The position numbers and the translations under genes were made by a program. Shown in pieces: positions 743 to 16,616 of a DNA stretch of 64,000 bases. Below the pieces are notes generated by a model that was not told where the DNA came from, did no database searches, and was given only the letters and a program-made list of their open reading frames with translations. Numbering within the stretch: the first letter of the stretch is position 1; every line of letters starts with the position of its first letter. The stretch spans positions 35,354 through 99,353 of the forward strand of contig JAHBYC010000007.1 of NCBI GenBank assembly GCA_019636175.1, in the 5' to 3' direction. The DNA is from Caulobacter sp. Its GTDB lineage: Bacteria; Pseudomonadota; Alphaproteobacteria; Caulobacterales; Caulobacteraceae.

Positions 743-1306
743 ATGGCGGTAGCCCTGAGACATGCGGATACGGACAGCGCCTCGGTCCTTGGCATGGCGA
801 CGATCACGGACGGCCCGGCCGAGCTGATCGCCCACATTCTGGAACGCTACCATCGCATCCATCTGCGTGAATTTCCCGTGGCCATCCGTCTGGCTCGCGC
901 CGTGGAGATTGATCACGCGCGGGCCCCGGATTGTCCAGCCGGCCTGGCTGATCACCTCGCCCTGATGGCCGACGAGCTTGCCGGGCATCAACGCAAGGAG
1001 GAAACCCTCCTCTTTCCGCTGCTGCTGCGCGGCGACGGGGCGCGGGCGGAACCGGCCATTCGCCGGATGATGTCCGAACATGATGATGTTGATGACCAGC
1101 TGACCCGGCTGGCGGCCTTGACGCGGGACTTCATCGCCCCACCCGGCGCCTGCGAGAGATGGCGCGCCCTGTACCGGGCCTGTCACAAGATCGACCGCGA
1201 CCTTCGCGACCATATGCGGCTGGAAGATCAGGTGCTCTTTCCAATGTTCCTGTCGCGCAACGTCCCCGGGTCGTCCCCCTCAGAGCCGCAGCACCTCGAC
1301 CTCTGA
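743..1306 (+). CDS. Hemerythrin-like di-iron protein (RIC/YtfE-related)
   Basis: The protein (187 residues) is a hemerythrin HHE-type helical bundle like the C-terminal part of RIC/YtfE/ScdA, which repairs iron-sulfur clusters or handles nitric oxide. Visible iron-ligand candidates are the two His of HILERYH (H31, H37), GHQRKEE, the His of SEHDD and DHMRLED. The short N-terminal ScdA domain of full-length RIC is absent. I chose the ATG at 743 because GGAG lies five to six bases upstream; another in-frame ATG at 731 would add four residues. It is divergent from nnrS and its 3' end overlaps that of moeA by 27 bp. Hemerythrin fold is well supported; exact function is inferred from family and neighbours. 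Confidence 0.85.
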   Translation: MAVALRHADTDSASVLGMATITDGPAELIAHILERYHRIHLREFPVAIRLARAVEIDHARAPDCPAGLADHLALMADELAGHQRKEETLLFPLLLRGDGARAEPAIRRMMSEHDDVDDQLTRLAALTRDFIAPPGACERWRALYRACHKIDRDLRDHMRLEDQVLFPMFLSRNVPGSSPSEPQHLDL

Positions 1307-2467
1307 CCCGGCAAGACCCGTGGCTTGGCCCGGACGACGGCGGATCAGCAGGTCCGAAAGCGCCAGGACCTTCTGGGCCGAGGAGTCCTGATTTTGCAGC
1401 GGCTCGACCGTTTCATCCTGCCGTCGGCCGCGAACAAAGGTCTCGCGATCGCCGCAGGCCTCGATATCCCGGCTCAGCGGGCGGCGGCGCCAGTGCAGGG
1501 CAGTGTCAGCGCCACGGCCCGCCAGACCCGCCACCAACGGGGCCAGCAGAAGTCGAGCCGTGACCATCGCCGAGCTCGGGTTTCCGGGCAGGCCGACAAT
1601 CAGGACCCCGGAGGCCCGTCCAAGCCACACCGGCTTGCCCGGCTTAATGGCCACTCTGGAAAAGACCAGATCGAGATCGAGCGGCGCGAACATCGCCTTT
1701 CCGAAGTCCCGCTCACCAACCGAAGCGCCGCCGATCACGACGACAAGGTCAGCCCGGGCGACCGCCGCCCGCGCCGCCGCCTCCAGCGCTGGAAGGCGGT
1801 CGACGATCTGTTGGCGGTCAATCACGTCGCCGCCCCATTGCCTCACCAGGGCGGCGACGCCGTGGGAAACACTTTCGGGAATGGATTGCGGCGACGCGGT
1901 CGCCGATCCCGGCGCCCGCAGTTCGTCACCCGTGCCAAGAATCACCACCCGGGGCCGGCGGACCACCTCCAGCGTCGCCAGGTCGGCGGCGGCGGCGGCG
2001 ACCAGCCGCTGTGGATTGAGCCGCGCCCCGGGCTCGACCAGCAGGTCTCCGACCTCGAAGTCCGACCCGGCGGCGCGCAGATGACGTCCGCCCGACGGCG
2101 CCGCGGCGAAGAAGGCCGTGTCGCCGTCGGTTGTCACGGTCTCCTGCACAATGACCCGGTCGGCACCCGGCGGCGCGGGCGCCCCGGTGAAAATGCGGAC
2201 ACAGGTCCCCGGCGCCAGAACCCCGTCAAAACCCTGGCCGGCGAAGGCCGCGCCGATCACCGGCAGGCGGACCGGCGCCCGGGCGACATCGCTGTCGCGA
2301 ACAGCATAGCCATCCATCGCCGACACCGCGCAGGAAGGAGCCGTCCGGCGGGCGATCACCGGCGCGGCGAGCACCCGGTCCTGAGCCTCGGCCAGAGCGA
2401 CCCGCTCGGCCGCCAGCGGCCGCGCCAGATCGGCGACCCGGCGAACGGCCTCGTCGAACAGGATCAA
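1280..2467 (-). CDS. moeA: Molybdopterin molybdenumtransferase MoeA
   Basis: MoeA inserts molybdate into adenylylated molybdopterin, the last step of basic molybdenum cofactor synthesis. The roughly 395-residue product shows the family order: N-terminal domain I/II with SAMDGYAVRDSD, the central MoCF-like domain with VVVIGGASVGERD, and the C-terminal beta domain after PGKPVWLGR and LPGNPSSA. I chose the TTG at 2467-2465, whose last two bases overlap the moaB stop codon and which gives the usual family N-terminus (ILFDEAVRRV); another TTG at 2512 would add 15 residues read from moaB sequence. Translational coupling with moaB is likely. Together they supply cofactor for molybdoenzymes such as nitrate reductase, which fits the adjacent nnrS. 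Confidence 0.93.
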   Translation of the reverse strand: MILFDEAVRRVADLARPLAAERVALAEAQDRVLAAPVIARRTAPSCAVSAMDGYAVRDSDVARAPVRLPVIGAAFAGQGFDGVLAPGTCVRIFTGAPAPPGADRVIVQETVTTDGDTAFFAAAPSGGRHLRAAGSDFEVGDLLVEPGARLNPQRLVAAAAADLATLEVVRRPRVVILGTGDELRAPGSATASPQSIPESVSHGVAALVRQWGGDVIDRQQIVDRLPALEAAARAAVARADLVVVIGGASVGERDFGKAMFAPLDLDLVFSRVAIKPGKPVWLGRASGVLIVGLPGNPSSAMVTARLLLAPLVAGLAGRGADTALHWRRRPLSRDIEACGDRETFVRGRRQDETVEPLQNQDSSAQKVLALSDLLIRRRPGQATGLAGSEVEVLRL

Positions 2468-3036
2468 TTGCAGATGTCCCGGTAGCGGGGAATCTGGCCG
2501 ACCAGCGAACAAGGGCGGAAACGACTGTCCAGTTCCTCGGCCAGCACCAGATCCCAGGCGTCGCGGCAGGCCCCCGTCGAGCCCGGAATACAGAAGATGA
2601 AGGCGTCGTCGATCTGCCCGGCAAGGGCCCGCGACTGCAGGGTCGAGACCCCGACCGTTTCCCGGCTGGCCTGATGAAAGACCACGCCGAAGCCGTCCAT
2701 GGCCCGTCGGAGCAGCGGCTGGACCGCCTCGGGGGTGACATCGCGCGGGGAAAACCCGGTGCCGCCGGTGGTCAGGATGACGTCGACCCCCGGATCGGCG
2801 ACCCAGGAAAGCACCTGCTGCTGGATAGCCGGAACCTCGTCCGGCACGATGCGCCGCGCCGCCAGGACGTGGCCGGCCATCGTCAATCGATCCGCCAGCA
2901 GAGAGCCGGAGGTGTCGGTCTCGGCGGTGCGGCTGTCGGAGATGGTCAGAACGGCGATGTTCAGCGGATAGAAGGGCCGCCGCTCGTCGATGCCGGTTCT
3001 TCGCCCGATCGCGGGGCGGGAGGATGCGTCTGTCAT
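2464..3036 (-). CDS. moaB: Molybdenum cofactor biosynthesis protein MoaB
   Basis: MoaB/MogA proteins adenylylate molybdopterin before molybdate insertion by MoeA. The 190-residue protein has the single MoCF-binding domain: NIAVLTISDSR near residue 26, the molybdopterin-binding loop TTGGTGFSPRDVTPEA near residue 89, and the IPGSTGA loop near residue 149. A hydrophilic extension of about 24 residues precedes the domain, as in many MoaB proteins. The stop codon overlaps the moeA start, so the two form one unit. An FNR-like box lies 81-94 bp upstream of its ATG. MogA is the close alternative; MoaB is preferred because of length and N-terminus. Confidence 0.92.
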   Translation of the reverse strand: MTDASSRPAIGRRTGIDERRPFYPLNIAVLTISDSRTAETDTSGSLLADRLTMAGHVLAARRIVPDEVPAIQQQVLSWVADPGVDVILTTGGTGFSPRDVTPEAVQPLLRRAMDGFGVVFHQASRETVGVSTLQSRALAGQIDDAFIFCIPGSTGACRDAWDLVLAEELDSRFRPCSLVGQIPRYRDICN

Positions 3037-4284: not shown

Positions 4285-5991
4285 TTATGGCGGAGGTCCT
4301 GAAGAGCTGTCTGTTCCTTCGAATTTTGTTTTTTTGTTTTGGAGAGCCTCTGTAGGCGGAAGCCCAGCGATCAAGCACAGCGGCACAGCCGTCGCCCGGG
4401 TCACCACTCCAGTGAAGGTTTGGGGGGTCGGCCAGCGCTCCGCCCCCGGAAGGCGTTCGAACAACTTGGCCGGACTGCTGCGGTAAGGCGTGTCCCGCAA
4501 GAGAGTGTGGACCCGCGTATTCCGACCGACCAAGAGAATTGGCTTCGGCTTGAGCCAGACAATCATGCCAAGATTTCTGAGGTGGCGGTCGGCTTCCTTA
4601 TAATCTCCGGAACTCGATGCCCCCGACTTTCCCACCACGACCTCGGCGATAAGGTCAAAGACGCTGCAGTCGCGGGCGCCAAGCCGCAGGGGCGCCTGAA
4701 GAAGCGCACCAAGCGCCTGCTGCGGGTCGTCATTGTCCCGTTCGGGCCGGCGGCCGGACCAATCCCAGCTGCTCATGAAGTCCGTTGCCGCCACATCTGT
4801 CGCAATGCCGTCGTTTGACATGACCCACGCGGCAGTAATGAGCAAGCCGTACTGGTCGGCATAGCGCGGTGACCCGAGTTCGCTCAGGCAAACCCGTCTA
4901 AAGGCCGGCAGGCTCCGGAGGAAATGGTCGAAATTATCGATCATCCTTCGGTGCAGTTTCGCCGGCAGGTCTTGGCTACGCATATTATTCAGGTCTTCGA
5001 GATGCTGGGCCCATGAGCTTTGCTCAGAAGGCTCACGCTTGCCTTGCTTCAACTCGAGCACGGCAAATCGCTCAATATCGGCCTGATTTTGCAAGCCGAT
5101 CTGAATGGACGCGATGCAGGCCATCGACCGGACCATGAAATCCATCGCCTTGCCGCCCGCGGTTCCTCTCAATGTGCGCGCGCCTGTCTCTGACGACGAT
5201 TGCCGCAGCAGGGTCACCACATCCTGGACCCGACCACGCTCGCGATCATCGGACTGCTCGCCCTCGTCCATGACAATCGGCAGCGCATCGTGGCCGAGCT
5301 TTTGTCGGAGGCCTGCTTCGGTCGTGTTGCCCTGCACAAAGAGTGCGCTTCCGTTCAAAAGCGGCAGAACAAACTCGTTCAGCACCGTCGTCTTTCCGGA
5401 GCCCGCCCCGCCCGTAATCCAGAGGTGAGGCCGCCAGCCCAAACCGCCACAAAGGGGCGCCAAGGCGCACCAACCGGCGAGCAGAAGGCCCGAGGTCGGA
5501 TCATCCCATGGAAAGGCAGTCGCCATCTTCACGAGCAGCGCGCCTTCCGCCGTGCTGGCGCCCTCGGTGGCCGGAAGAGGCAAGGAGGCGCCTTGGGGAT
5601 AGACGCCCACATCGACGTCCTCCAGGTCACGAATTTCGCCGCCGACCACCAGGCGATCGCCGGCGTGATAGATCAGTTGGTTTTCGACGTTGGACGCTCC
5701 CCTTCCCTTAATCTGGGACTCGTCGAAATGGCCGAGGCGGTTGGCCTCCTTGTTGAACCAATCGGCGGCTGCGAGGTGATCAAACCCGTTCACGCCCTTC
5801 CCTGGAAATCGCTGCACAAGCCACTCAAGCCCAGCGACCGACACAAGCACCCCGGCGCGAAGGTCGCCGTCCCTGAGACTGCGAACAATTTTCCGCTGCC
5901 GATCGTAGATGACGATGCTGTCAGCGCTGAAGCCCAGCACCCGAAACCGGGTGGGTTGGTCGGATCGGGCCGACTTCTCCAGGGCGCTCAT
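4285..5991 (-). CDS. P-loop ATPase of mobile-element replication (DUF927/D5-helicase-like)
   Basis: The 568-residue protein has a central P-loop: Walker A GGAGSGKTT near residue 189 and a Walker B-like LPIVMDEGEQ about 45 residues later, followed by TLLRQSSSETGARTLRGT, the arrangement seen in DUF927-type and phage D5/P4-like helicases. The N-terminal 140 residues may be a specificity domain; the zinc and catalytic motifs of a primase are not visible, so it may be a helicase only. The ATG overlaps the stop of the AlpA-like gene (ATGA), so the two are translationally coupled. It probably drives replication or maintenance of the integrated element. ATPase is well supported; role is inferred from family and neighbours. 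Confidence 0.75.
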   Translation of the reverse strand: MSALEKSARSDQPTRFRVLGFSADSIVIYDRQRKIVRSLRDGDLRAGVLVSVAGLEWLVQRFPGKGVNGFDHLAAADWFNKEANRLGHFDESQIKGRGASNVENQLIYHAGDRLVVGGEIRDLEDVDVGVYPQGASLPLPATEGASTAEGALLVKMATAFPWDDPTSGLLLAGWCALAPLCGGLGWRPHLWITGGAGSGKTTVLNEFVLPLLNGSALFVQGNTTEAGLRQKLGHDALPIVMDEGEQSDDRERGRVQDVVTLLRQSSSETGARTLRGTAGGKAMDFMVRSMACIASIQIGLQNQADIERFAVLELKQGKREPSEQSSWAQHLEDLNNMRSQDLPAKLHRRMIDNFDHFLRSLPAFRRVCLSELGSPRYADQYGLLITAAWVMSNDGIATDVAATDFMSSWDWSGRRPERDNDDPQQALGALLQAPLRLGARDCSVFDLIAEVVVGKSGASSSGDYKEADRHLRNLGMIVWLKPKPILLVGRNTRVHTLLRDTPYRSSPAKLFERLPGAERWPTPQTFTGVVTRATAVPLCLIAGLPPTEALQNKKTKFEGTDSSSGPPP

Positions 5992-6185
5992 TTCGAATTT
6001 CCCGAACGGGCATTGATCCAGGCGTCGATATCATTCGACCGCCAGCCGACGGCACGCCGCCCGAGTTTCAGTGGTTTGGGAAAGTCACCGGCTGCCACGG
6101 CGGCAAAGAGCCACGAGCGACCCATGCCGATACGGGTAAGAACGGCGGGCAGCCGTTCGATGGAAGGTTTGGAAACGTCGTCCAC
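5988..6185 (-). CDS. AlpA-family excisionase/transcriptional regulator
   Basis: This 65-residue protein has the MerR-like winged helix of AlpA/phage excisionases: RLPAVLTRIGMGRSWLFAAV, then FPKPLKLGRRAVGW and a closing NDIDAWINAR. AlpA proteins control integrase expression and excision of P4-like elements. I chose the GTG at 6185-6183 because a perfect AAGGAG (6193-6198) lies seven bases upstream; the longer frame from 6230 has no such site. It overlaps the ATPase gene by four bases. Presence of this gene, a replication ATPase and a tRNA-linked integrase gives the classic satellite core. Confidence 0.85.
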   Translation of the reverse strand: MDDVSKPSIERLPAVLTRIGMGRSWLFAAVAAGDFPKPLKLGRRAVGWRSNDIDAWINARSGNSK

Positions 6186-6258
6186 GAGAGTTCTCCTTAC
6201 GTCAAAGCGATCCGGAAACTCTGGCGTCACGACAAAAGTGCGAAATGATCGAGATGAT

Positions 6259-7108: not shown

Positions 7109-7195
7109 GCACCCGTTTCAACCAACGCGAATGCAACCTCCGCTTCCACTTGGCCGCCAGACTTGCCAAAGTGCGTTCCGGGAGGGTTGGGGGCA

Positions 7196-10100
7196 TTGCA
7201 GTCGTCGAATTTCGGATTTCTTGAAACCCACGACACGCGGCTGCCGAAGCTCGCCGCGCTGGCGGAGCGCTATTTCAGCGATGACCCGCCGACCACTCTG
7301 ATTAAACTTCGACAATACGCCGAAGTCCTGTGCGGACTTGTCGCCGCCAATGCGGGCCTGCTGGGCTTGCCTAATGAAACCTTCGCCGACCGACTTCGCC
7401 GCCTCCAATACGAACGCGTGGCGCCGAGGGAGGCCAGCGAGCTATTCCACCAACTTCGAACGCTCGGCAACCGCGCCGCCCACGAGGGGCTCGGCACCCA
7501 TGCGGAGGCGCTTTCGGCACTCAAAATCGCCCGGGAACTGGGGATCTGGTTTCATCGCTCGTTTGGCGGAGAGGCCCGATTCAGTCCTGGCGCCTTCATT
7601 CCGCCCCGCCCTCCCGTAGACCCGACCCTCGAATTGAGAGCGGAGCTGGACCGTCTGCGCACGGAACTGGCCATGAGCCAGACCGAGAGCGAACGGGCCA
7701 TGGCCGAAGCCGCCATGGAGGCCGAAGCGCGACTATCGGCCGAGATGCGGGCGGCCAGAGAAGCCGAGGAGAAGGCGGACTGGTCCCGGCTGGCCGAAGA
7801 GACGGACGCTCAGCTTCGCGAGCTCAGCGCCCGTCTTGCGGTTATCCAGGCAGCCTCCGAAGCCGACCCGGCGAAAACGCTGGCCTTCGTGGAGCGCAGC
7901 CAGGAGGGCGCCAGCAACATTCGCCTGGACGAGGCCGCGACCCGGACCATCATCGACCAGCAGCTTCGCGACGCGGGCTGGGACGCCGACACCCAGCTTC
8001 TGCGCCACGCAAAGGGCAGCAGGCCGACCAAGGGCAAGAACCTCGCCATCGCAGAATGGCCTACTGACAGCGGCCCTGCCGACTACGCTCTGTTCGTCGG
8101 GCTCAAACTGGTGGGTGTGATCGAGGCCAAGCGATCGAACCGCAATGTCATGACCGCCCTGCGTCAGGCGGAGCGCTATTCGGCCGGAATCAAGCTTTCC
8201 GAGGACCAGCTCTCCGAGGGAGCCCCATGGGGAGAGTTCCGAGCGCCCTTCGCTTTTTCGACCAACGGCCGGCCCTATCTACGCCAGCTGGAGACCGCAT
8301 CGGGGATCTGGCGGCGAGATCTGCGCCGCGGGATCAATCCCGCCGGGGCGCTTCTCGGCTGGCCGACGCCACAGGGCCTGCTTGAGCGCCTCGAGGTCGA
8401 CCGGGACGCCGCCGAGAGCTCGCTCAAAACTCAGGGTTTCGACTTTGGCTTTCCCCTGCGCCCCTACCAGCGCAAGGCCATCGAGGCCGTCGAGACGGGG
8501 CTGGCGGCCGACAGGCCGCACATGCTGATCGGCATGGCGACCGGGACCGGCAAGACCAAGCTTGCCATCGCCATGCTCTACCGCCTGATCGCGGCCAAGC
8601 GGTTCCGGCGGGTCTGCTTTGTCGTGGACCGCAGCGCCCTCGGCGACCAGACCGAGAAGGAATTCACCACGACCAAGGTGGTGAGCGGCAAGAGTTTCGC
8701 CGAAATCTTCGGCCTGAAGGGGCTGTCAGACGCCACGCCCGATCCTGAGACCCGAATTCACATCTGCACCATTCAAGGCCTGGTGAAGCGAGTGCTCTAT
8801 GCCGACACCCCGGCTGACGCTCCGCCGGTGGATCAGTATGACTTGATCGTCGTCGATGAATGCCACCGCGGCTACCTGCTTGATCGCGAGATGTCGGACG
8901 CGGAACTGAGCTTCCGCAGCCAGGACGACTACGTCTCCAAATACCGCCGGGTGCTTGACTATTTTGATGCGACCAAGATCGGTCTGACCGCCACCCCCGC
9001 GCTGCACACCGTCCAGATTTTCGGCGAACCTGTCTTCACCTATTCGTACCGCGAAGCCGTGGTGGACGGCTTTCTGATCGACCATGAGCCGCCGGTCCGG
9101 ATCACGACCGCCCTGGCGAAGGACGGCATCCACTTCATCGCCGAGGAGGAGGTCACCTTCATCCACGCGCCGACTGGCCAGACCGAACTCTTCAAATTGC
9201 CGGACGCCCTCGACTTCGAGGTCGAGGCCTTCAACAAGACCGTCATTACCCCGCCCTTCAATCGGGCTGTGGCCGATGAACTGACCCGCCACATCGACCT
9301 TTCCGAACCGGACAAGACGCTGGTGTTTGCCGCATCCGATGCGCACGCCGACATCGTGGTGCAGTCATTGCGCGATGCGTTTCGTGCGGCCTATGGGGAG
9401 CTTGAGGACGCGGCGATCGAAAAGATCACCGGCAGCGTGGACAGGGTCGGAAAGCTCATTCTCAGCTACCGGAACGACACCTTCCCCAAGATCGCCGTGA
9501 CGGTCGACCTCTTGACCACCGGCATCGATGTGCCGAAGATCACCAATCTGGTTTTCCTGCGCCGGGTGAACAGCCGGATCCTCTATGAACAGATGCTGGG
9601 CCGGGCGACACGGCTGTGCCCCGAGATCGGCAAGGAGACCTTCCGGATCTTTGACGCGGTGGACCTCTACAGCCGGCTCCAGAACCTGACCGAGATGAGG
9701 CCGGTGGCGTCGGACCCGGCCATCTCGCTGAGCCAGCTCCTGAACGAACTCGCGGAGGTCGAAGACGCCCGGCACCGCGCCGACGTCCGCGATCAGATTA
9801 TCGTCAAGCTCAGCCGGCGACTGAAGCGAATGACCCAGGAGGCTCGCGCCAAGGCACAGCTCGCCGCCGGTGAAACACCGGAGGACACGCTCGTTCGGTT
9901 CCGGACCGGATCAGTCGAAGAGCTGGTGAATTGGGTAAAGGCCCGCCCCGGCCTTGGTCCCGCCCTCGACTGGCAGACTGACGGTGGCGTGCCGGCCCTG
10001 ATGCCGATCTCTGAGCATCCCGATGAAGTCGTAGACGTCAGCCACGGCTATGGCGGCGCCGACAAACCGGAGGATTACCTCAATTCGTTCGCCGCCTTCA

Positions 10101-10570
10101 TCAAAGCCAACCTCAACCAGATCGCCGCCCTCACCACCGTTGTTCAGCGACCTCGAGACCTCACCCGCGCCGCGCTTCGGGACCTGAGACTGCAGTTGGA
10201 CGCGCAAGGCTTCACTGACGCCAAGATTCGCCGAGCCTGGTCGGAGGCGAAGAATGAGGACATCGCCGCTTCGATCATCGGCTTCGTCCGCCAGGCCGCT
10301 CTTGGGGACCCGCTTGTTCCCTACGCCGACCGGGTCAAGCGGGCGGTCGAAAAGGTGAGCAGCCAGGGCGGCTGGTCGCCGGTCCAGAAGCGGTGGCTTC
10401 ACCGCATCGGCGAACAGTTGGAGAAGGAGATCGTCGTCGATCGCACGTCTCTGGACGAGGAGCCCTTCCTGGCTGACGGGGGCTTCCGGATCCTCAACAA
10501 GCGGTTCGACGGACAGTTGGAGAAGGTCCTGTCGGACCTCAGTGAGGAAGTATGGCGAACGGCGAGCTGA
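7196..10570 (+). CDS. hsdR: Type I restriction enzyme, R subunit HsdR
   Basis: HsdR is the translocase and endonuclease subunit of a type I restriction complex (R2M2S). The product (about 1124 residues) has an N-terminal helical domain of DUF4145 type, a coiled coil near residues 150-215, a nuclease domain with PADYALF and GVIEAKR (PD...ExK, near residues 297-309), then the SF2 motor: GMATGTGKTK near residue 446, VVDECHRG near 554, GLTATPA soon after and LLTTGIDVPK. The C-terminus matches the EcoEI-type R tail. I chose TTG at 7196 because GGAGGG lies nine bases before it and the protein then begins at the family's SNFGFL; a TTG at 7163 would add 11 residues. It overlaps hsdM by 19 bp. Confidence 0.95.
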   Translation: MQSSNFGFLETHDTRLPKLAALAERYFSDDPPTTLIKLRQYAEVLCGLVAANAGLLGLPNETFADRLRRLQYERVAPREASELFHQLRTLGNRAAHEGLGTHAEALSALKIARELGIWFHRSFGGEARFSPGAFIPPRPPVDPTLELRAELDRLRTELAMSQTESERAMAEAAMEAEARLSAEMRAAREAEEKADWSRLAEETDAQLRELSARLAVIQAASEADPAKTLAFVERSQEGASNIRLDEAATRTIIDQQLRDAGWDADTQLLRHAKGSRPTKGKNLAIAEWPTDSGPADYALFVGLKLVGVIEAKRSNRNVMTALRQAERYSAGIKLSEDQLSEGAPWGEFRAPFAFSTNGRPYLRQLETASGIWRRDLRRGINPAGALLGWPTPQGLLERLEVDRDAAESSLKTQGFDFGFPLRPYQRKAIEAVETGLAADRPHMLIGMATGTGKTKLAIAMLYRLIAAKRFRRVCFVVDRSALGDQTEKEFTTTKVVSGKSFAEIFGLKGLSDATPDPETRIHICTIQGLVKRVLYADTPADAPPVDQYDLIVVDECHRGYLLDREMSDAELSFRSQDDYVSKYRRVLDYFDATKIGLTATPALHTVQIFGEPVFTYSYREAVVDGFLIDHEPPVRITTALAKDGIHFIAEEEVTFIHAPTGQTELFKLPDALDFEVEAFNKTVITPPFNRAVADELTRHIDLSEPDKTLVFAASDAHADIVVQSLRDAFRAAYGELEDAAIEKITGSVDRVGKLILSYRNDTFPKIAVTVDLLTTGIDVPKITNLVFLRRVNSRILYEQMLGRATRLCPEIGKETFRIFDAVDLYSRLQNLTEMRPVASDPAISLSQLLNELAEVEDARHRADVRDQIIVKLSRRLKRMTQEARAKAQLAAGETPEDTLVRFRTGSVEELVNWVKARPGLGPALDWQTDGGVPALMPISEHPDEVVDVSHGYGGADKPEDYLNSFAAFIKANLNQIAALTTVVQRPRDLTRAALRDLRLQLDAQGFTDAKIRRAWSEAKNEDIAASIIGFVRQAALGDPLVPYADRVKRAVEKVSSQGGWSPVQKRWLHRIGEQLEKEIVVDRTSLDEEPFLADGGFRILNKRFDGQLEKVLSDLSEEVWRTAS

Positions 10571-12033
10571 CCCGGGGACGGGTCACCACCCAGGACATTG
10601 TCAGCAAGCTCTGGAGCCTCTGCCACGTCCTGCGCGACGACGGCGTGAGCTATCAGGAGTACGTCACTGAGCTGACCTTCCTGCTATTCCTCAAGATGCT
10701 GGAGGAGACCGGCCGGGAGGAGCGTCTTCCTGAAGCTTACCGCTGGAACCAGATCGCCCGGCGCGAGGGCGTCGATCAGCTCGACCACTACAAGCGCGCC
10801 CTGCTGGATCTCGGGCAAGCTCCTGATCCCACGGTGCAGGCCATCTTCACCGACGCCCAGACCAAGCTGCGCAAGCCGGCCAACCTCAAGACACTGACCA
10901 CGGCTATCGACGGCCTGGACTGGTTCTCGGCGCGGGAGGAGGGGCTCGGCGAGCTCTATGAAGGACTGCTGGAAAAGAACGCGGCGGAGAAGAAGTCTGG
11001 CGCGGGCCAGTACTTCACACCCCGCCCCCTGATCGATTGCATCGTGCGGCTGATGAAGCCTCAGCCGGGGGAGGTAATCCAGGACCCGGCCGCTGGGACG
11101 GGCGGCTTCCTCGTCGCCGCCGACCGCTACATCAAGGACGCCACCGACGACCTGTACGGCCTGCCCCAGGCCCAGGTCTTCTTCCAGCGGCACAACGCCT
11201 TCACCGGCGTCGAACTGGTCCCTGACACCCACCGCCTCGCCCTGATGAATCTGATGCTGCACGGCATCGAGGGTCCGATCGTTCTGGGCGACAGCCTTTC
11301 GCCGGATGGAGAAGCGCTGGGCAAGGCGGACCTGATCCTCACCAACCCGCCCTTCGGCACCAAGAAGGGCGGCGGGCGGCCCAGCCGCTCGGACTTCTCG
11401 ATCACCGCCGACACCTCGAACAAGCAGCTGGCCTTCGTCGAGCACATCGTCCGCGCCCTCAAGCCGGGCGGCCGCGCGGCGGTGGTCCTGCCGGACAATG
11501 TGCTGTTCGAGGACAACACCGGCCGCCGCCTGCGCCAGTGGGTGATGGAGTTGGCCGACCTGCACACGATCCTGAGGCTGCCGACGGGCATCTTCTACGC
11601 CCAAGGGGTCAAGACCAACGTCTTGTTCCTGCGCCGGGGCGCGAAGGACCGAGCCAACACCCAGGCCGTCTGGGTCTACGACATGCGCGCCAACATGGCC
11701 GCGTTCGGCAAGACGCGACCACTCACGCTGGCTGACTTCGCGGCATTCGAGACCGCCTACGGCGAGGATTCGAACGGCGCTTCACCGCGCACGGAAGAGG
11801 GCCCGGATGGTCGCTTCCGCCGCTTCAGCCGCGAGGACATCGCCGCCCGCAACGACAACCTCGACATCGCCTGGCTGCGCGATGACAGCGCGGAAGCCGA
11901 GGACGACCTGGTCGAGCCGGAGGACATCGCTGCGGCGATTATGGGCCATCTACGGGCGGCGCTAGCCGAGGTGGAGGCGGTGGAGGAGGAATTGGCTGCC
12001 GAAGGGGTGGCGCTGGTTGAGGTGGACGGATGA
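10552..12033 (+). CDS. hsdM: Type I methyltransferase, M subunit HsdM
   Basis: HsdM carries the N6-adenine methyltransferase activity that protects host DNA. The 493-residue protein has the helical HsdM N-domain, the SAM-binding motif DPAAGTGGFLVAADRY near residue 179, and the catalytic motif NPPF near residue 264 followed by a Gly-rich loop. The conserved lead-in KKSGAGQYFTPRPLI precedes motif I. Length and motifs are intact, so it should be active. It sits in the middle of a tightly overlapping operon: 19 bp with hsdR and four bases (ATGA) with hsdS. The Glu-rich C-terminal tail is typical of the family. Confidence 0.96.
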   Translation: MANGELTRGRVTTQDIVSKLWSLCHVLRDDGVSYQEYVTELTFLLFLKMLEETGREERLPEAYRWNQIARREGVDQLDHYKRALLDLGQAPDPTVQAIFTDAQTKLRKPANLKTLTTAIDGLDWFSAREEGLGELYEGLLEKNAAEKKSGAGQYFTPRPLIDCIVRLMKPQPGEVIQDPAAGTGGFLVAADRYIKDATDDLYGLPQAQVFFQRHNAFTGVELVPDTHRLALMNLMLHGIEGPIVLGDSLSPDGEALGKADLILTNPPFGTKKGGGRPSRSDFSITADTSNKQLAFVEHIVRALKPGGRAAVVLPDNVLFEDNTGRRLRQWVMELADLHTILRLPTGIFYAQGVKTNVLFLRRGAKDRANTQAVWVYDMRANMAAFGKTRPLTLADFAAFETAYGEDSNGASPRTEEGPDGRFRRFSREDIAARNDNLDIAWLRDDSAEAEDDLVEPEDIAAAIMGHLRAALAEVEAVEEELAAEGVALVEVDG

Positions 12034-13469
12034 AGCCGCCGGGTTGGGCGGAAACGCCGCTTGCCGCCGTTGCGACTAAGATCGGTAGTGGGGCCACCCC
12101 TAGGGGCGGGAGCGAATCGTACACTAGAGAGGGTGTGCCCCTCATTCGCTCCATGAATGTGCATTTCGATGGTGTGCGCCTCGAAGGCTTAGCTCATCTG
12201 GACGACACCCAAGCGGCGGCATTGGCCAATGTCGAAGTTGCGGCAGGAGACGTCCTGCTGAATATCACCGGTGCATCAATCGGTCGGGTTGCTGTTGCGC
12301 CCGCCATCCTTGCTGGTGCCCGGGTCAATCAGCACGTCTCGATCATTCGACTGGCGGCCGGATTGGAACCACAGTTTGTCCGGGCTTATCTTGCCTCCCC
12401 CGTCGCCCAAGCAATCATCGGTGGTGAGAACTATGGGGTGACACGTCCGGCCCTAACGAAGGGCCTGATCGAGGAAATGAGGATCCCTGTTGCCCCTCTC
12501 GCAGAGCAGCGAAGGATCGTGGCGAAGCTCGACGGCCTGATCACCAGCACGGCGCGCGCGCGCGCTGAACTCGATCGCGTGCCGGCGCTGGCCACGCGTT
12601 ACAAGCAGTCGGTGCTGGGGAGAGCGTTTAGCGGGCAGTTGACGGCGGCGTGGCGTGCTGCCCAGTCTGCCTTCGAGCCTATCTCACCCCGTAGCGAAGG
12701 CGACATCCGAGCGAAATACCGGACGGCCGGCGCTTCTACCGGCTTCACGCCGCCATATGGAATTCCCAAAAGCTGGCGCTGGCTGCGGCTGCCGGAACTT
12801 GGAGACATGGATCGCGGCAAGTCGCGCCATCGGCCTCGTGACGACCCCCGGCTTTTCGGTGGCCTCTTCCCATTTGTGCAGACTGGAGAGGTGCGTGCGG
12901 CCGACCGTTACCTGACCAGCTATGCTAAGACATACAGCCCCTTCGGTCTCGAGCAGAGCAGGCTTTGGCCCGCCGGGACCGTGTGCATCACTATTGCAGC
13001 GAATATCGCCGAGACTGCGATCCTGGGAATCGATGCGTGCTTTCCAGACAGCGTTGTAGGCTTCAGCGCTGATCAGGCGCGCTGCCTGCCCGAATACGTC
13101 GAGTATTTTATCCGAACGGCAAAGGCCGACCTGGAGCAGTTCGCGCCGGCGACCGCGCAGAAGAACATCAACTTGGAGGTCCTTGGAGCTATCCGCCTGC
13201 CGGTTCCGCCTCTGGGTGAACAAGCCGAAATTGTCCGCAAGATCGACGTCGCCTTCGCCGAAATTGACCGTCTCTCCGCCGAAACCTCAGCCGCGCGCAA
13301 GCTCCTCGACCGTCTCGACCAAGCTGTTCTCGCCAAGGCCTTCCGTGGCGACCTTGTGCCGCAAGACCCGGCCGACGAGCCGGCCAGCGTCCTGCTTGAC
13401 CTCATCCGCGCCGAACGGGCCGGCGCGCCCAAGGGCAAGCGAGAGCGAAGACCTCGAGAAGCAGCGTGA
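12030..13469 (+). CDS. hsdS: Type I specificity subunit HsdS
   Basis: HsdS recognises the bipartite DNA target of the type I enzyme. The 479-residue protein has the standard plan: target-recognition domain 1 (to about residue 150), the first conserved region PVAPLAEQRRIVAKLDGL followed by a long helix, target-recognition domain 2 (about 235-385), and the second conserved region PVPPLGEQAEIVRKID followed by a helix ending AFRGDLVPQDP. The two helical spacers are complete, so it is not a half-size or phase-variable fragment. The base composition dips in the first recognition domain, a usual sign of domain exchange. The target sequence cannot be predicted by eye. Confidence 0.95.
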   Translation: MKPPGWAETPLAAVATKIGSGATPRGGSESYTREGVPLIRSMNVHFDGVRLEGLAHLDDTQAAALANVEVAAGDVLLNITGASIGRVAVAPAILAGARVNQHVSIIRLAAGLEPQFVRAYLASPVAQAIIGGENYGVTRPALTKGLIEEMRIPVAPLAEQRRIVAKLDGLITSTARARAELDRVPALATRYKQSVLGRAFSGQLTAAWRAAQSAFEPISPRSEGDIRAKYRTAGASTGFTPPYGIPKSWRWLRLPELGDMDRGKSRHRPRDDPRLFGGLFPFVQTGEVRAADRYLTSYAKTYSPFGLEQSRLWPAGTVCITIAANIAETAILGIDACFPDSVVGFSADQARCLPEYVEYFIRTAKADLEQFAPATAQKNINLEVLGAIRLPVPPLGEQAEIVRKIDVAFAEIDRLSAETSAARKLLDRLDQAVLAKAFRGDLVPQDPADEPASVLLDLIRAERAGAPKGKRERRPREAA

Positions 13470-14443
13470 GGGTCTTCATCGTCAATGTAGGCCAGCAAAA
13501 CTACCTCTGGCCGGACTGCCTTGCGCGGAACACCGTCGCGACCGTCGACAACGTCGCCGTCCATCACTTCTGGGATCAGCGAGACCGCAAGGGGTACATT
13601 GAGCACGCGCTCGCGCACCTGAAGACAGCGCGCAACGAGACGCCGACACGAGCGGTCGCATCCCGCTGGTACGGGCTGATGGAGGCGATCACCGAGACGG
13701 GCGGCGACATCTGGATCCACCGGGAAAAGGAACAGCTATGGTGGACGACCTCCCTCGGCGATCCCGTCCAGACCGAGCGCCGACCGTCCTTCAACGCCGT
13801 GCGCGACGGGCCGGAGATCTTTGAACTCCACAAGCCCTGCGAGCCGTGGTCGGACCGAAACCGGAAGGGTGGAAAGCTCTCCTGGGACGGGCTGCATCCC
13901 AAGGCCAAGGACTTCCTGTTCACGGAGGGGACGCTCCAGCAGCTTGCTCCTGACAACGCCGCCTATGCTCTGGCGCTGATCGCCGGTGACGACCTTTCTG
14001 GATGGCACAACCAGCCGACCTGGCAGGCGAAGTCCGACCGCGCCGGGCGGTCCGCCGTAACGTCATTCAGCCCCGCCCAACGGGCGGCCTGGCGCATGGC
14101 CGATACGGCGCTGGCCACGGTGGCACAGTCCAACGGACAGCAAGCGCTCCGAACGATCAAGAACAAGGACTGTCTGTTCACTCGTGAGGAACTGCGGGAG
14201 TATATCCAGTCACTGATCCTCGATCAGGATGAGCTCTGCGCGATTACGGGCATCCCGCTCCAGTTCGATGGCGCGCAGGAGGACTCCGAACTGTTGGCCT
14301 CACTGGACCGGATCGACAGCAACGGCCATTACGAGCGCGGAAACCTCCAGGTCGTCTGTCGCTTCGTGAACCGCTGGAAGAGCGACGCCAGGGATGAGGA
14401 GTTTCGGCGGCTGATCGAGCTGGTGCGGACCTCGCGGTTCTAG
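13466..14443 (+). CDS. Putative modified-base reader fused to HNH endonuclease
   Basis: This 325-residue protein is the fourth gene of the hsd operon; its GTG start lies inside the hsdS stop (GTGA). The N-terminal 190 residues look like a PUA/EVE-type nucleic-acid reader: VFIVNVGQQNY, then DIWIHREKEQLWWT and LHPKAKDFLFTEGTLQQL. The C-terminus (about 255-325) is HNH-like: CAITGIPL, SLDRIDSNGHYERGNLQVVC and a following Asn/Lys. The usual metal-binding His after the first Asp is Arg (DRID), as in some phage HNH proteins, so the catalytic His is not certain. Reader-HNH fusions are known as modification-dependent (type IV) restriction enzymes. HNH is moderately sure; the reader assignment and substrate are inference. 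Confidence 0.7.
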   Translation: MRVFIVNVGQQNYLWPDCLARNTVATVDNVAVHHFWDQRDRKGYIEHALAHLKTARNETPTRAVASRWYGLMEAITETGGDIWIHREKEQLWWTTSLGDPVQTERRPSFNAVRDGPEIFELHKPCEPWSDRNRKGGKLSWDGLHPKAKDFLFTEGTLQQLAPDNAAYALALIAGDDLSGWHNQPTWQAKSDRAGRSAVTSFSPAQRAAWRMADTALATVAQSNGQQALRTIKNKDCLFTREELREYIQSLILDQDELCAITGIPLQFDGAQEDSELLASLDRIDSNGHYERGNLQVVCRFVNRWKSDARDEEFRRLIELVRTSRF

Positions 14444-14456
14444 GTCACGGTCGACC

Positions 14457-15059
14457 TCAGTAGGCCGACACCAGCGAAGGCGGGTCGCCGGTCGCCCAGG
14501 CCTGTCCGAAACTGTTCGCATCCTCCATTTGCTTGCCAAGCACCCCAAGCCACCCGCCTTCCCAGGTCCCGAACGCTGATCGGCCATCGGGCAGGGTCAG
14601 TTTTTGCGGAAGGGTGCGGATCAGGTAGACGGGATTCTGGCCGGCGCCGTACTCGGCGCCCAGTTCCGCGAAATCTTCTCCCGCCATGACGAATACCGCC
14701 TTGCCACCCCGTGACAGGGTGACCTTTCCGAACTTCCGATCCTTCAGGGCCTCGGCCGTCTGAAACAACTCACGGGTCAGATCGATGGTCGCCGCATCGC
14801 CGAGAGTCACAAGGTTCACCGTGATGTCGCGCGGGTGAACGAACCAGGCCCGGTAGACATGGATGCCGGCCGCATGATTGCGCTCATCTTTCGCCAGCGC
14901 CGCCGCGACCGGCGCCCAGGCGGTAAGATTGAACACCAAAATCAGAGCCAGGGCGGTGGCGGCGCCGATCGCCCATTTACGTCGATGCGTATCGACTGGA
15001 GGCGGGGTTTGAGGAGGCGCGACCGCCTCGCCTTCAGGCTCGCTGTCCGGTTCTTCCAT
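14457..15059 (-). CDS. Hypothetical protein with one N-terminal membrane helix
   Basis: I do not recognise this 200-residue protein. It has an acidic, Pro-rich N-terminus of about 27 residues, one transmembrane helix (WAIGAATALALILVFNLTAW), and a soluble domain rich in short beta-like segments (ITVNLVTLGDAATIDLTREL; VTLSRGGKAVFVMAG). The topology suggests an inner-membrane anchor with the C-terminal domain outside the cytoplasm. It converges on the reader-HNH gene with 13 bp between stop codons and lies next to the integrase, so it is part of the element's cargo. No catalytic motif is visible, and no function is proposed. Confidence 0.7.
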   Translation of the reverse strand: MEEPDSEPEGEAVAPPQTPPPVDTHRRKWAIGAATALALILVFNLTAWAPVAAALAKDERNHAAGIHVYRAWFVHPRDITVNLVTLGDAATIDLTRELFQTAEALKDRKFGKVTLSRGGKAVFVMAGEDFAELGAEYGAGQNPVYLIRTLPQKLTLPDGRSAFGTWEGGWLGVLGKQMEDANSFGQAWATGDPPSLVSAY

Positions 15060-15151: not shown

Positions 15152-16378
15152 CTATGCCACGATGAAATCCATAGGGGCGCGGGGGGCGCGTTCCATCGTC
15201 CGGGCGGCGTCAAGATAGTCGGCCCACCAGCCCATCATCTTGCGTCGCTGCGGCAACCACTCCGCGGCGTTGTAGGCCGCCCGGACCTCGTCCCGTTCGG
15301 CGTGGGCCAACTGACGCTCCACCCAGTCACGATTGAAGCCATGCTCATTGAGGATCGTTGACGCGGTCGACCGGAAGCCATGCACCGTGGCCCGGCTGTG
15401 GTAGCCCATGCGATAGAGTGCATAGATCATGGTGTTTTCGGAGATTGCTCCGGTCGTCGTGGCGGCCGGGAACAACAGGTCGTCGGCCGGCCATCCGGCG
15501 CGAAGGTCCTTAAGGACGGCCACGGCCTGTTTCGACAGCGGGACCACGTGCTCGGTCCGCATCTTCATGCGCTCGGCGGGGATCCGCCACAACGGTTCCG
15601 CCCCATCAAGCCCTTCAAATTCGCACCAGGCTGCAAATCGCGTTTCCGAGGTACGCACGAAGGTCAGCAGGGTCAACTTCAACGCCAGTTGGGTCTGCAA
15701 ATCACCGCTGTACCCCTCCAGAGCGACGAGGAAATCAGGCAAGTCCCTGGCCTTCAGGGATGCGCGGCGTTTCGGGGGCGGCCGGGTGCTCAGGGCCGGC
15801 GCGAGGTCTGCCGCCGGATTCGAGGTCACCAGTCGCTCCGCCTTGGCGAACCGGAAGATGTCCTGAAGATAGTTTCCCACCCGACGCGCTGTCTCGACTG
15901 CGCCTCGCGCCTCGATCGCTCGCAGGGCTGCCAGAACGTCATCCGACGTGACGTCATCAATAGCCGCGTCCCCGAAGGCGCCGAAGGTGTCGTCCTCGAT
16001 CCGTCGCCAGACCCGCTCGGCGTATCCGGCCACCCAGCGGGATTTGCGCGCTTCGAACCAGCGTGCCGCCACGCTGCGGAATTGAGCCCTGGCGGTTTCG
16101 TCAACCTTGCGCTTCTCCCGCGCCTTCAATTCGCACGGGTCCTGGCCTTCCCTCAGGCGCTTTCTGGCGTCGTCGCGGAGGTTGCGCGCCTCGACCAGCG
16201 TCACCTCGGCGCCGCTGCCGAGCGCCAGGGTCTTGCGCTTGCCATCGAACCGGTAGTCGACCCGCCAAAGCCTTGAACCCTTTGGGGTCACCAGAAGATA
16301 GAGCCCGCCGCTGTCAGCCATCTTGTACGGCTTGGCCTGAGGCTTGGCGTTCCTGACTCCGACGGCAGTGAGGCTCAT
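15152..16378 (-). CDS. Tyrosine integrase, P4/DUF4102 type
   Basis: The enzyme catalyses site-specific integration and excision. Its 408 residues include an arm-binding DUF4102 domain (residues 1-90, with GLYLLVTPKGSRLWRVDYRF), a core-binding domain (about 100-180) and the catalytic domain with Arg242 (FVRTSE), a Lys near 272-274, His333 and Arg336 (HGFRSTA), His359 (QLAHAE) and Tyr369 (RAAYN). All catalytic residues are present. It lies 162 bp from the 3' end of the tRNA-Ile gene, the standard position for an integrase of a tRNA-targeted element. Inverted repeats between it and the tRNA are likely binding or control sites. Confidence 0.95.
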   Translation of the reverse strand: MSLTAVGVRNAKPQAKPYKMADSGGLYLLVTPKGSRLWRVDYRFDGKRKTLALGSGAEVTLVEARNLRDDARKRLREGQDPCELKAREKRKVDETARAQFRSVAARWFEARKSRWVAGYAERVWRRIEDDTFGAFGDAAIDDVTSDDVLAALRAIEARGAVETARRVGNYLQDIFRFAKAERLVTSNPAADLAPALSTRPPPKRRASLKARDLPDFLVALEGYSGDLQTQLALKLTLLTFVRTSETRFAAWCEFEGLDGAEPLWRIPAERMKMRTEHVVPLSKQAVAVLKDLRAGWPADDLLFPAATTTGAISENTMIYALYRMGYHSRATVHGFRSTASTILNEHGFNRDWVERQLAHAERDEVRAAYNAAEWLPQRRKMMGWWADYLDAARTMERAPRAPMDFIVA

Positions 16379-16540: not shown

Positions 16541-16616
16541 TGGTAGGCGCGGCAGGACTCGAACCTGCAACCAGACCGTTATGAGCGGACGGCTCTAACC
16601 ATTGAGCTACGCGCCC
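16541..16616 (-). tRNA. tRNA-Ile(CAT)
   Basis: The 76-nt cloverleaf includes the encoded CCA. The acceptor is GGGCGCG with CGCGCCT (G1-U72 wobble), the D arm GCTC/GAGC, the anticodon loop CTCATAA, the T arm GCAGG-TTCGAGT-CCTGC. Anticodon CAT with a GGTTAGAGC D loop and CTCATAA loop fits the lysidine-modified tRNA-Ile2 rather than tRNA-Met. The anticodon stem has a U28-U42 mismatch. The neighbouring integrase and the direction of the gene make its 3' end the likely attachment site. Confidence 0.9.

Follow-up and report, generated by a model that had tools for sequence, protein, structure and literature searches.

A gene overlapping hsdS in a Caulobacter type I restriction operon encodes a PacI-type HNH domain behind a putative reader-like region

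The type I operon and its fourth gene

We analysed a stretch of 64,000 nucleotides of Caulobacter sp. DNA (class Alphaproteobacteria; GenBank assembly GCA_019636175.1, contig JAHBYC010000007.1, positions 35,354 to 99,353 of the forward strand), called here the window, in which the three genes of a type I restriction system are followed by a fourth gene that overlaps hsdS. The product of this gene carries a C-terminal HNH domain of the PacI type, and its N-terminal region is predicted to adopt a fold that marginally resembles modified-base readers. The genes of the operon are located as follows.

7163-10570, + strand: hsdR, type I restriction subunit with DUF4145, HSDR_N, ResIII and EcoEI_R_C domains (NCBIfam PRK11448, 1521 bits; Pfam; PADLOC REase_I); start codon unsettled
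10552-12033, + strand: hsdM, type I N6-adenine methyltransferase subunit (Pfam N6_Mtase 7.5e-72, HsdM_N 6.6e-9; PADLOC MTase_I 1.9e-211)
12030-13469, + strand: hsdS, specificity subunit with two target-recognition stretches (Pfam Methylase_S 1.3e-20; PADLOC Specificity_I)
13466-13469, + strand: GTGA, overlap of the hsdS stop and the fourth-gene start, read from the sequence
13466-14443, + strand: fourth gene, reader-fold and PacI-type HNH protein of 325 residues, GTG start

The initial annotation, made from the letters alone, had described a type I operon with a fourth gene overlapping hsdS by four bases. Both points were confirmed: hsdR, hsdM and hsdS are complete upstream of the fourth gene and all matched by profile libraries (NCBIfam, Pfam and PADLOC), and the open reading frame at 13466-14443 is present, shares GTGA with hsdS and contains the peptides that had been quoted. 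As hsdR and hsdM overlap by 19 bases and hsdM and hsdS by 4, like hsdS and the fourth gene, the four genes form one tightly coupled run.

The fourth gene is single-copy in its own genome, and its product showed no match to any Pfam, NCBIfam or PADLOC model. Searching the PDB with the protein by phmmer gave two matches only (E 0.62 and 1), the full-length profile A1 gave none, and profiles A2 and A3 gave one chance-level match apiece. Judged by the conservation of its sequence, the fourth open reading frame is a real gene and not a chance frame, since 43 genome loci match it by tblastn and full-length relatives occur on plasmids and viral contigs.

The nuclease domain and the N-terminal region

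The domains and the residues proposed for the active site map as follows (all on the + strand).

14162-14434, + strand: approximately residues 233-323, HNH domain (beta-beta-alpha-metal) of the sequence type seen in PacI and phage 'endonuclease VII'
14306-14311, + strand: codons of D281 and R282, aligned to PacI D92 and R93 (profile alignment)
14330-14332, + strand: codon of Y289, aligned to PacI Y100, proposed general base (profile alignment)
14369-14371, + strand: codon of N302, aligned to PacI N113, proposed metal ligand (profile alignment)
13466-14050, + strand: residues 1-195, PUA-superfamily-like region with YTH and EVE as nearest folds (AlphaFold, Foldseek, alignment A5)
14072-14131, + strand: residues 203-222, long helix joining both domains (DSSP of the AlphaFold model)

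The C-terminal HNH-like domain of the initial annotation was borne out by profile searches. Residues 222-322 matched PHROG 1035 (3.4e-15) and PHROG 3322 (3.5e-15), families named endonuclease VII and endonuclease, and HNH at 6e-7. When a profile of the domain built from 16 rows was compared with 177,635 PDB sequences, PacI (3ldy) came first with an E value of 0.0065, followed by Cas9 at 0.42; in the fold search with the whole model, GmeHNH (4h9d) appeared at E 0.2. The library of viral structures gave 51 matches at E<=1e-3; among the 50 listed, four are named HNH or restriction endonuclease, and the remainder are mostly unnamed or uncharacterised, with others named Zn-finger or anti-sigma, the matched domain not being indicated.

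The motif CAITG corresponds to residues 258-262 and SLDRIDSNGHYERGN to residues 279-293. The residues D281, R282, Y289 and N302 are in register with the D-R...Y...N active-site residues of PacI, whose general-base tyrosine we take to be Y100. Among 55 rows of relatives, D281 is kept in 53 and R282, Y289, N293 and N302 in 54 each; these rows represent 54 loci (types 1-3, defined below, and a few unplaced ones, from genomes, plasmids and the viral contigs L050-L058), the window's own copies (L001 and L130) being left out. Another 78 viral rows were taken from 71 other viral contigs, eight of them lacking a residue at D281, R282 and Y289; in the 70 rows with the residue present, D281 is found in 68, R282 in 67 and Y289 in 69, and N302 is kept in 71 of 76 viral rows. 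According to a review, a tyrosine in PacI is set as general base in place of the histidine, and an aspartate and an asparagine hold the metal (PMC4081073). The absence of a histidine after the first aspartate had led the initial annotation to doubt the activity of the domain. A degenerate HNH was ruled out, as the arginine at this position is branch-wide (54/55 and 67/70 rows) and the PacI-type tyrosine accounts for the missing histidine; at the sequence level, the doubt is lifted. The conservation of Asp, Arg, Tyr and Asn across the relatives is good evidence that the active site is functional rather than degenerate.

The likeness to PacI has its limits. PacI is a type II enzyme of 142 residues that cuts a palindrome and holds Cys4 zinc motifs, whereas the window protein has an extra reader-like region of 195 residues and only three cysteines in its nuclease part. 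No PacI-like Cys4 zinc motif was found in residues 217-325, where the cysteines are C236, C258 and C298. PacI has two zinc sites.

The N-terminal region was examined by structure prediction and fold search, the check put forward with the initial annotation. The AlphaFold model of the whole chain had a predicted local distance difference test (pLDDT) value of 84.5 (14 sequences), and that of residues 1-195 alone a value of 93.7 (21 sequences). In Foldseek, each of the best nine of 449 PDB matches of residues 1-195 was the YTH domain of YTHDF2 (probability 0.44-0.89, E 4.3e-3 to 3.9e-2, template-modelling (TM) score 0.29-0.35). With the whole model, the best seven of 429 matches were YTHDF2 (six) and PH1033, which we take to be an EVE/PUA-like protein; the PH1033 match had an E value of 9.6e-3, a probability of 0.96 and a TM score of 0.49 on the target. 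Over the YTH and PH1033 matches, TM scores ranged from 0.2 to 0.5. The model thus suggests that residues 1-195 marginally resemble YTH/EVE-like readers of the PUA superfamily. The PUA/EVE-type N-terminus noticed earlier holds in so far as YTH and PH1033 are the nearest folds of a confidently modelled region; the scores, with E values from 4e-3, are marginal, and the sequence comparisons with EVE, given below, were negative.

In alignment A5, which covers 21 of the 28 type 1 loci, 14 residues are invariant in all 21 rows (G9, N12, W15, C18, A65, W68, D81, W83, H85, W93, K123, W128, W140 and Y167). Six of them are tryptophans (W15, W68, W83, W93, W128 and W140), a pattern that fits a base pocket as far as an alignment can indicate. 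The stretches DIWIHREKEQLWWT and LHPKAKDFLFTEGTLQQL correspond to residues 81-94 and 143-160 of the protein. Compared by eye, FTEGTLQQLAPDNAAYALALI is similar to the final EVE motif in L136 and to a YTH stretch; hhalign did not align it in that register, and the likeness was not used as evidence. With the overlaps of the genes, the fold search and the HNH profiles uphold the earlier description of a reader-fold N-terminus and an HNH domain in one unit coupled to hsdRMS.

Relatives, linkage to hsd genes and genomic setting

The scan of species genomes (tblastn, E<=1e-3) gave 43 loci, 12 of which match nearly the entire query with 35-58% identity. Matches were also found in 24 plasmid records, and plasmids and viral contigs (best 80 of 256 matching viral stretches used) added full-length relatives with up to 63% identity. 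Of 385 genomes sampled from the class only three had a match, one being the window's genome and two matching the C-terminal part only, so that the family, to judge from these searches, is rare.

The relatives were sorted by their N-termini. Type 1, with the N-terminus of the window protein, comprises 28 loci: the window, L002-L014, L045-L047, L050-L058, L163 and L164. It includes near-copies (L005/L012, L006/L045, L050/L051, L053/L054 and L055/L058) and two partial or broken loci (L014 and L046); the type 1-like plasmid hits H5, H7 and H8 stand outside the 28. The C-terminal domain also occurs behind two other kinds of N-terminus, which define type 2 (15 loci) and type 3 (9 loci). Seven of the 15 type 2 proteins were given to Pfam and none exceeded the cut-off of a PUA-superfamily model, L023 alone having a sub-threshold EVE match (E 0.019). 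The loci L016, L017, L033, L039-L044 and the plasmid locus L048 were not placed in a type, being partial or unlike the others, with no open frame found for L017.

Linkage to hsd genes was scored with profiles grown from the window HsdR, HsdM and HsdS, and with Pfam on chosen neighbours. The gene shares an apparent operon with hsd genes at 5 of 28 loci in type 1, 5 of 15 in type 2 and none of 9 in type 3. The linked type 1 loci are the window, with its overlap; L005, with the order hsdM, hsdS, a gene for an AAA protein, an unknown gene and the type 1 relative; L012, which is alike by spacing; L007, where the relative is upstream of an hsdM-like gene and a Methylase_S gene; and L013, where it is followed by the start of an HsdM_N gene that the end of the contig cuts off. 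In type 2, the relative overlaps hsdS by ATGA at L028, L030, L036 and L049, and one CBS-domain gene separates the two at L023. The same four-base overlap after hsdS is therefore found at five loci (the window, L028, L030, L036 and L049) with two N-terminal types. Three further type 1 loci were not counted as linked: L004 with hsdRMS 4.0 kb upstream and other genes between, L008 with an HsdM-like gene 6.4 kb upstream, and L055, where HsdM is weakly matched on the opposite strand at a distance of 4.2 kb. The five linked type 1 loci are a lower bound, for contigs end near the gene in L050, L053, L054, L056, L057 and L058, and the HsdS profile missed the Methylase_S gene of L007, which Pfam found.

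Since Methylase_S was present in only 15 of 58 sampled genomes of the class, adjacency to hsdS would be rare by chance, and the direct adjacency observed should be well above it. Trees were built from 24 of the 28 type 1 rows (L014, L046, L163 and L164 left out), all 15 type 2 and all 9 type 3 rows, those with short flanks being scored as unlinked. The type 1 tree (24 rows) requires a minimum of three changes of the hsd label, two of them forced by well-supported branches, and 19 of 500 shuffles were as low; the nuclease-domain tree (48 rows) requires six, three of them forced, and 3 of 500 shuffles were as low. Because the trees demand several changes of the label, hsd linkage appears to have been gained or lost repeatedly. 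The survey of neighbourhoods proposed with the initial annotation thus upholds the recurrence of hsdS linkage, with several gains and losses; linkage as the rule was ruled out by the counts for the three types, 23 of the 28 type 1 loci being unlinked. The window's closest kin, L050 and L051 on viral contigs, are unlinked as far as their contigs extend.

Some neighbourhoods are of interest in themselves. At L018 (137-8375) a type 2 relative of 636 residues follows a type III restriction-modification pair (N6_N4_Mtase, then ResIII/RE_endonuc) and a DUF4268 protein; its N-terminus had no Pfam match and, by eye, looks like the ScoMcrA head domain. Just upstream of the type 2 relatives at L035 (5879-9759) and L131 (1489-3073), short HsdR-like proteins (134 and 150 residues) are encoded, called by Pfam HSDR_N in L035 and by the window HsdR profile in L131. 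L035 also has a HEPN_AbiV protein between the HsdR-like protein and the relative, and, downstream, a gene that matches MUG113/T5orf172 at borderline level and whose product, judged by eye, has an N-terminus similar to that of L023. The plasmid operon at L049 (1-8324) is annotated as hsdR, an FRG domain, hsdM, a NucS-like gene, hsdS and the type 2 relative. At L034 (871-8435) and L047 (1652-8972), relatives with different N-terminal types both come after a PD-(D/E)XK nuclease and a UvrD-like helicase, a recurrent defence-like context (both neighbours are annotated in L047; in L034 Pfam called PDDEXK_1, and the helicase was recognised by eye). The type 1 relatives of L045 and L006 lie within a type VI secretion / polymorphic-toxin island of Burkholderia, and at L045 (373-9914) another gene annotated HNH comes after the relative. 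The nine viral contigs L050-L058 carry full-length type 1 relatives, with hsd genes absent from the same apparent operon; L051 is among phage structural genes by eye, and a gene of this kind may be a prophage-borne exclusion gene.

Downstream of the fourth gene, the window holds the following features.

14457-15059, - strand: gene of an unassigned 200-residue protein, between the fourth gene and the integrase
15152-16378, - strand: tyrosine integrase, belonging to the mobile element that likely carries the operon (Pfam Phage_integrase, Phage_int_M, Arm-DNA-bind_3)
16541-16616, - strand: tRNA-Met (CAT), adjoining the integrase, plausible attachment site (ARAGORN)

The protein encoded at 14457-15059 had no Pfam match at E<=1. 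On the far side of the operon, positions 4285-6230 hold one protein with a sub-threshold AAA match (Pfam) and a small regulator-like protein (by eye), and positions 1280-3036 hold molybdenum-cofactor genes, chromosomal in look by eye. Repeat searches found no second copy of the tRNA-Met end at the far side. The operon is likely carried on an integrase-bearing element of roughly 13 kb.

Proposed function and rival explanations

We consider it fairly probable that the fourth gene encodes a modification-dependent (type IV-like) restriction nuclease of a stand-alone kind, here recruited by a type I operon. This is proposed by analogy, because the plan of reader, linker helix and HNH matches that of VcaM4I, where an EVE domain flips 5-methylcytosine (5mC) or 5-hydroxymethylcytosine into a pocket and a linker helix restrains the nuclease (PMC7897488). 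Like VcaM4I and the EVE-HNH proteins, the window protein has a PUA-superfamily-like N-terminus, a linker helix and a C-terminal HNH domain in a single protein, with an hsd partner absent at most loci; unlike them, it has no EVE sequence match and is coupled to hsdS. That 23 of the 28 loci have no hsd gene in the same apparent operon is as expected of a type IV enzyme, and it suggests that the protein probably works alone and is recruited to restriction-modification operons.

In the proposed mechanism, the reader would flip a modified base out of the incoming DNA into a pocket whose walls are the invariant tryptophans, and this flipping would position or release the HNH domain, probably dimeric, which would cut nearby. 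Y289 would activate water, and D281 and N302 would hold the metal. The type I enzyme would cut DNA that lacks the host mark and the fourth-gene enzyme DNA modified to evade type I, and the four-base overlap would keep both arms co-expressed and, on the small integrase-bearing element, co-inherited. We infer modified-base binding, cutting, dimerisation and the two-arm role with HsdRMS, as well as the modification dependence and the closing of an escape route for phages that the initial annotation had put forward. The ligand cannot be the N6-methyladenine expected at HsdM's own sites, because the cell would otherwise cut itself, HsdM being in the N6-adenine methylase family; more probable candidates are a modified cytosine and the bulkier modifications of phage DNA.

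Several points weigh against this proposal. The fold scores are marginal and come from two proteins only, the YTH matches being several crystals of one protein. The Pfam EVE model had no match to the fourth-gene protein at E<=1, and hhalign against 30 EVE domains of the class gave probabilities of 4% (local) and 0.1% (global), which are not significant. VcaM4I (H224) and TagI use HNH histidines, whereas the window protein has the PacI-type tyrosine. A C5-cytosine methyltransferase gene is found close to one type 1 homologue, L055, which makes plain 5mC doubtful as ligand, at least at that locus. The count of 23 unlinked type 1 loci is an upper bound (contig ends, the HsdS profile miss at L007). 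Finally, the same nuclease domain occurs after hsdS on a different N-terminus in type 2, and since another N-terminus is put in the same place, the coupling may concern the nuclease rather than the reader.

A wider possibility, which we hold as tentative, is an undescribed module family in which a PacI-type tyrosine HNH domain is combined with interchangeable sensor regions and repeatedly placed, translationally coupled, straight after hsdS, giving a two-armed system, perhaps a nuclease under type I control. The sensors would be YTH/EVE-like in the window and of at least two other kinds elsewhere.

The chief rival is a guard or back-up role like that of PrrC, in which the protein would be kept latent by the type I complex, be freed when phage anti-restriction proteins block HsdRMS, and then nick or cut DNA, aborting the infection; the N-terminal region would be a complex contact or a sensor and not a base reader. 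The position directly after hsdS with the four-base overlap, in the window, L028, L030, L036 and L049, and the single nuclease domain shared by two N-terminal types in that position speak for it, and a precedent exists in PrrC, an accessory nuclease encoded within the type IC locus of EcoPrrI and activated when T4 Stp inhibits EcoPrrI (PMC12707154). PrrC is, however, a tRNA (anticodon) nuclease and the window protein carries an HNH domain. By gene content, dependence on a type I partner was not found, as no hsd gene stands in the same apparent operon at 23 of 28 loci of type 1, the closest kin L050 and L051 among them, and we regard this explanation as unlikely. Still less probable is a type II or junction-resolving nuclease whose N-terminus binds ordinary DNA, self DNA being spared by HsdM methylation or by choice of structure. 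The nearest solved nuclease is indeed PacI, a type II enzyme, and the nearest PHROG is named endonuclease VII, but at many loci no methyltransferase was seen next to the gene (HsdM was sought by profile, other methyltransferases only by eye and in selected neighbours), although a type II enzyme acting by itself would require one, and the N-terminal fold is nearest to modified-base readers. That a mobile HNH gene merely landed beside hsdS in a defence hot spot as cargo, with no functional link, is highly improbable given the four-base overlaps after hsdS at five loci with two N-terminal types and the sparseness of hsdS genes (15/58 genomes), even though close relatives are on viral contigs and some adjoin recombinase/transposase-like genes (by eye) or integrase-profile matches.

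The stand-alone modification-dependent nuclease can be set beside systems already described. The pairing of an EVE reader with a type I system so as to restrict both kinds of DNA has been proposed before: Bell et al. (2020, PMC7641849) described EVE-HNH fusions and EVE proteins associated with type I operons and proposed that such pairs restrict modified and unmodified DNA. The window protein likewise is a PUA-superfamily reader-type protein beside hsdRMS with the same proposed logic; those EVE proteins are reported as stand-alone (mostly archaeal) or PIN-GNAT-EVE, whereas the window reader is fused to a nuclease and overlaps hsdS. The McrB of Thermococcus gammatolerans, reported to read N6-methyladenine through a YTH domain, the nearest solved fold family, is a precedent for a YTH reader in a type IV system; McrB works with McrC, whereas the window HNH is in the same chain, and a plain N6-methyladenine ligand would clash with HsdM. 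The literature searched, which took in few subscription papers or bioRxiv preprints, described neither the fusion of a reader with a PacI-type HNH nor a gene of this kind in overlap with hsdS.

The systems that restrict modified DNA and those that restrict unmodified DNA are commonly pictured as separate, with no tie beyond a common defence island. A reader-nuclease overlapping hsdS by four bases would join both kinds of restriction into one heritable, co-expressed unit, and would introduce the rare tyrosine active site of PacI to modification-dependent restriction. It would also offer a new tool family, with a base specificity constrained by the N6-methyladenine expected from its own operon. 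If the module family is real, the type I system would become two-armed, restricting both unmodified and modified DNA.

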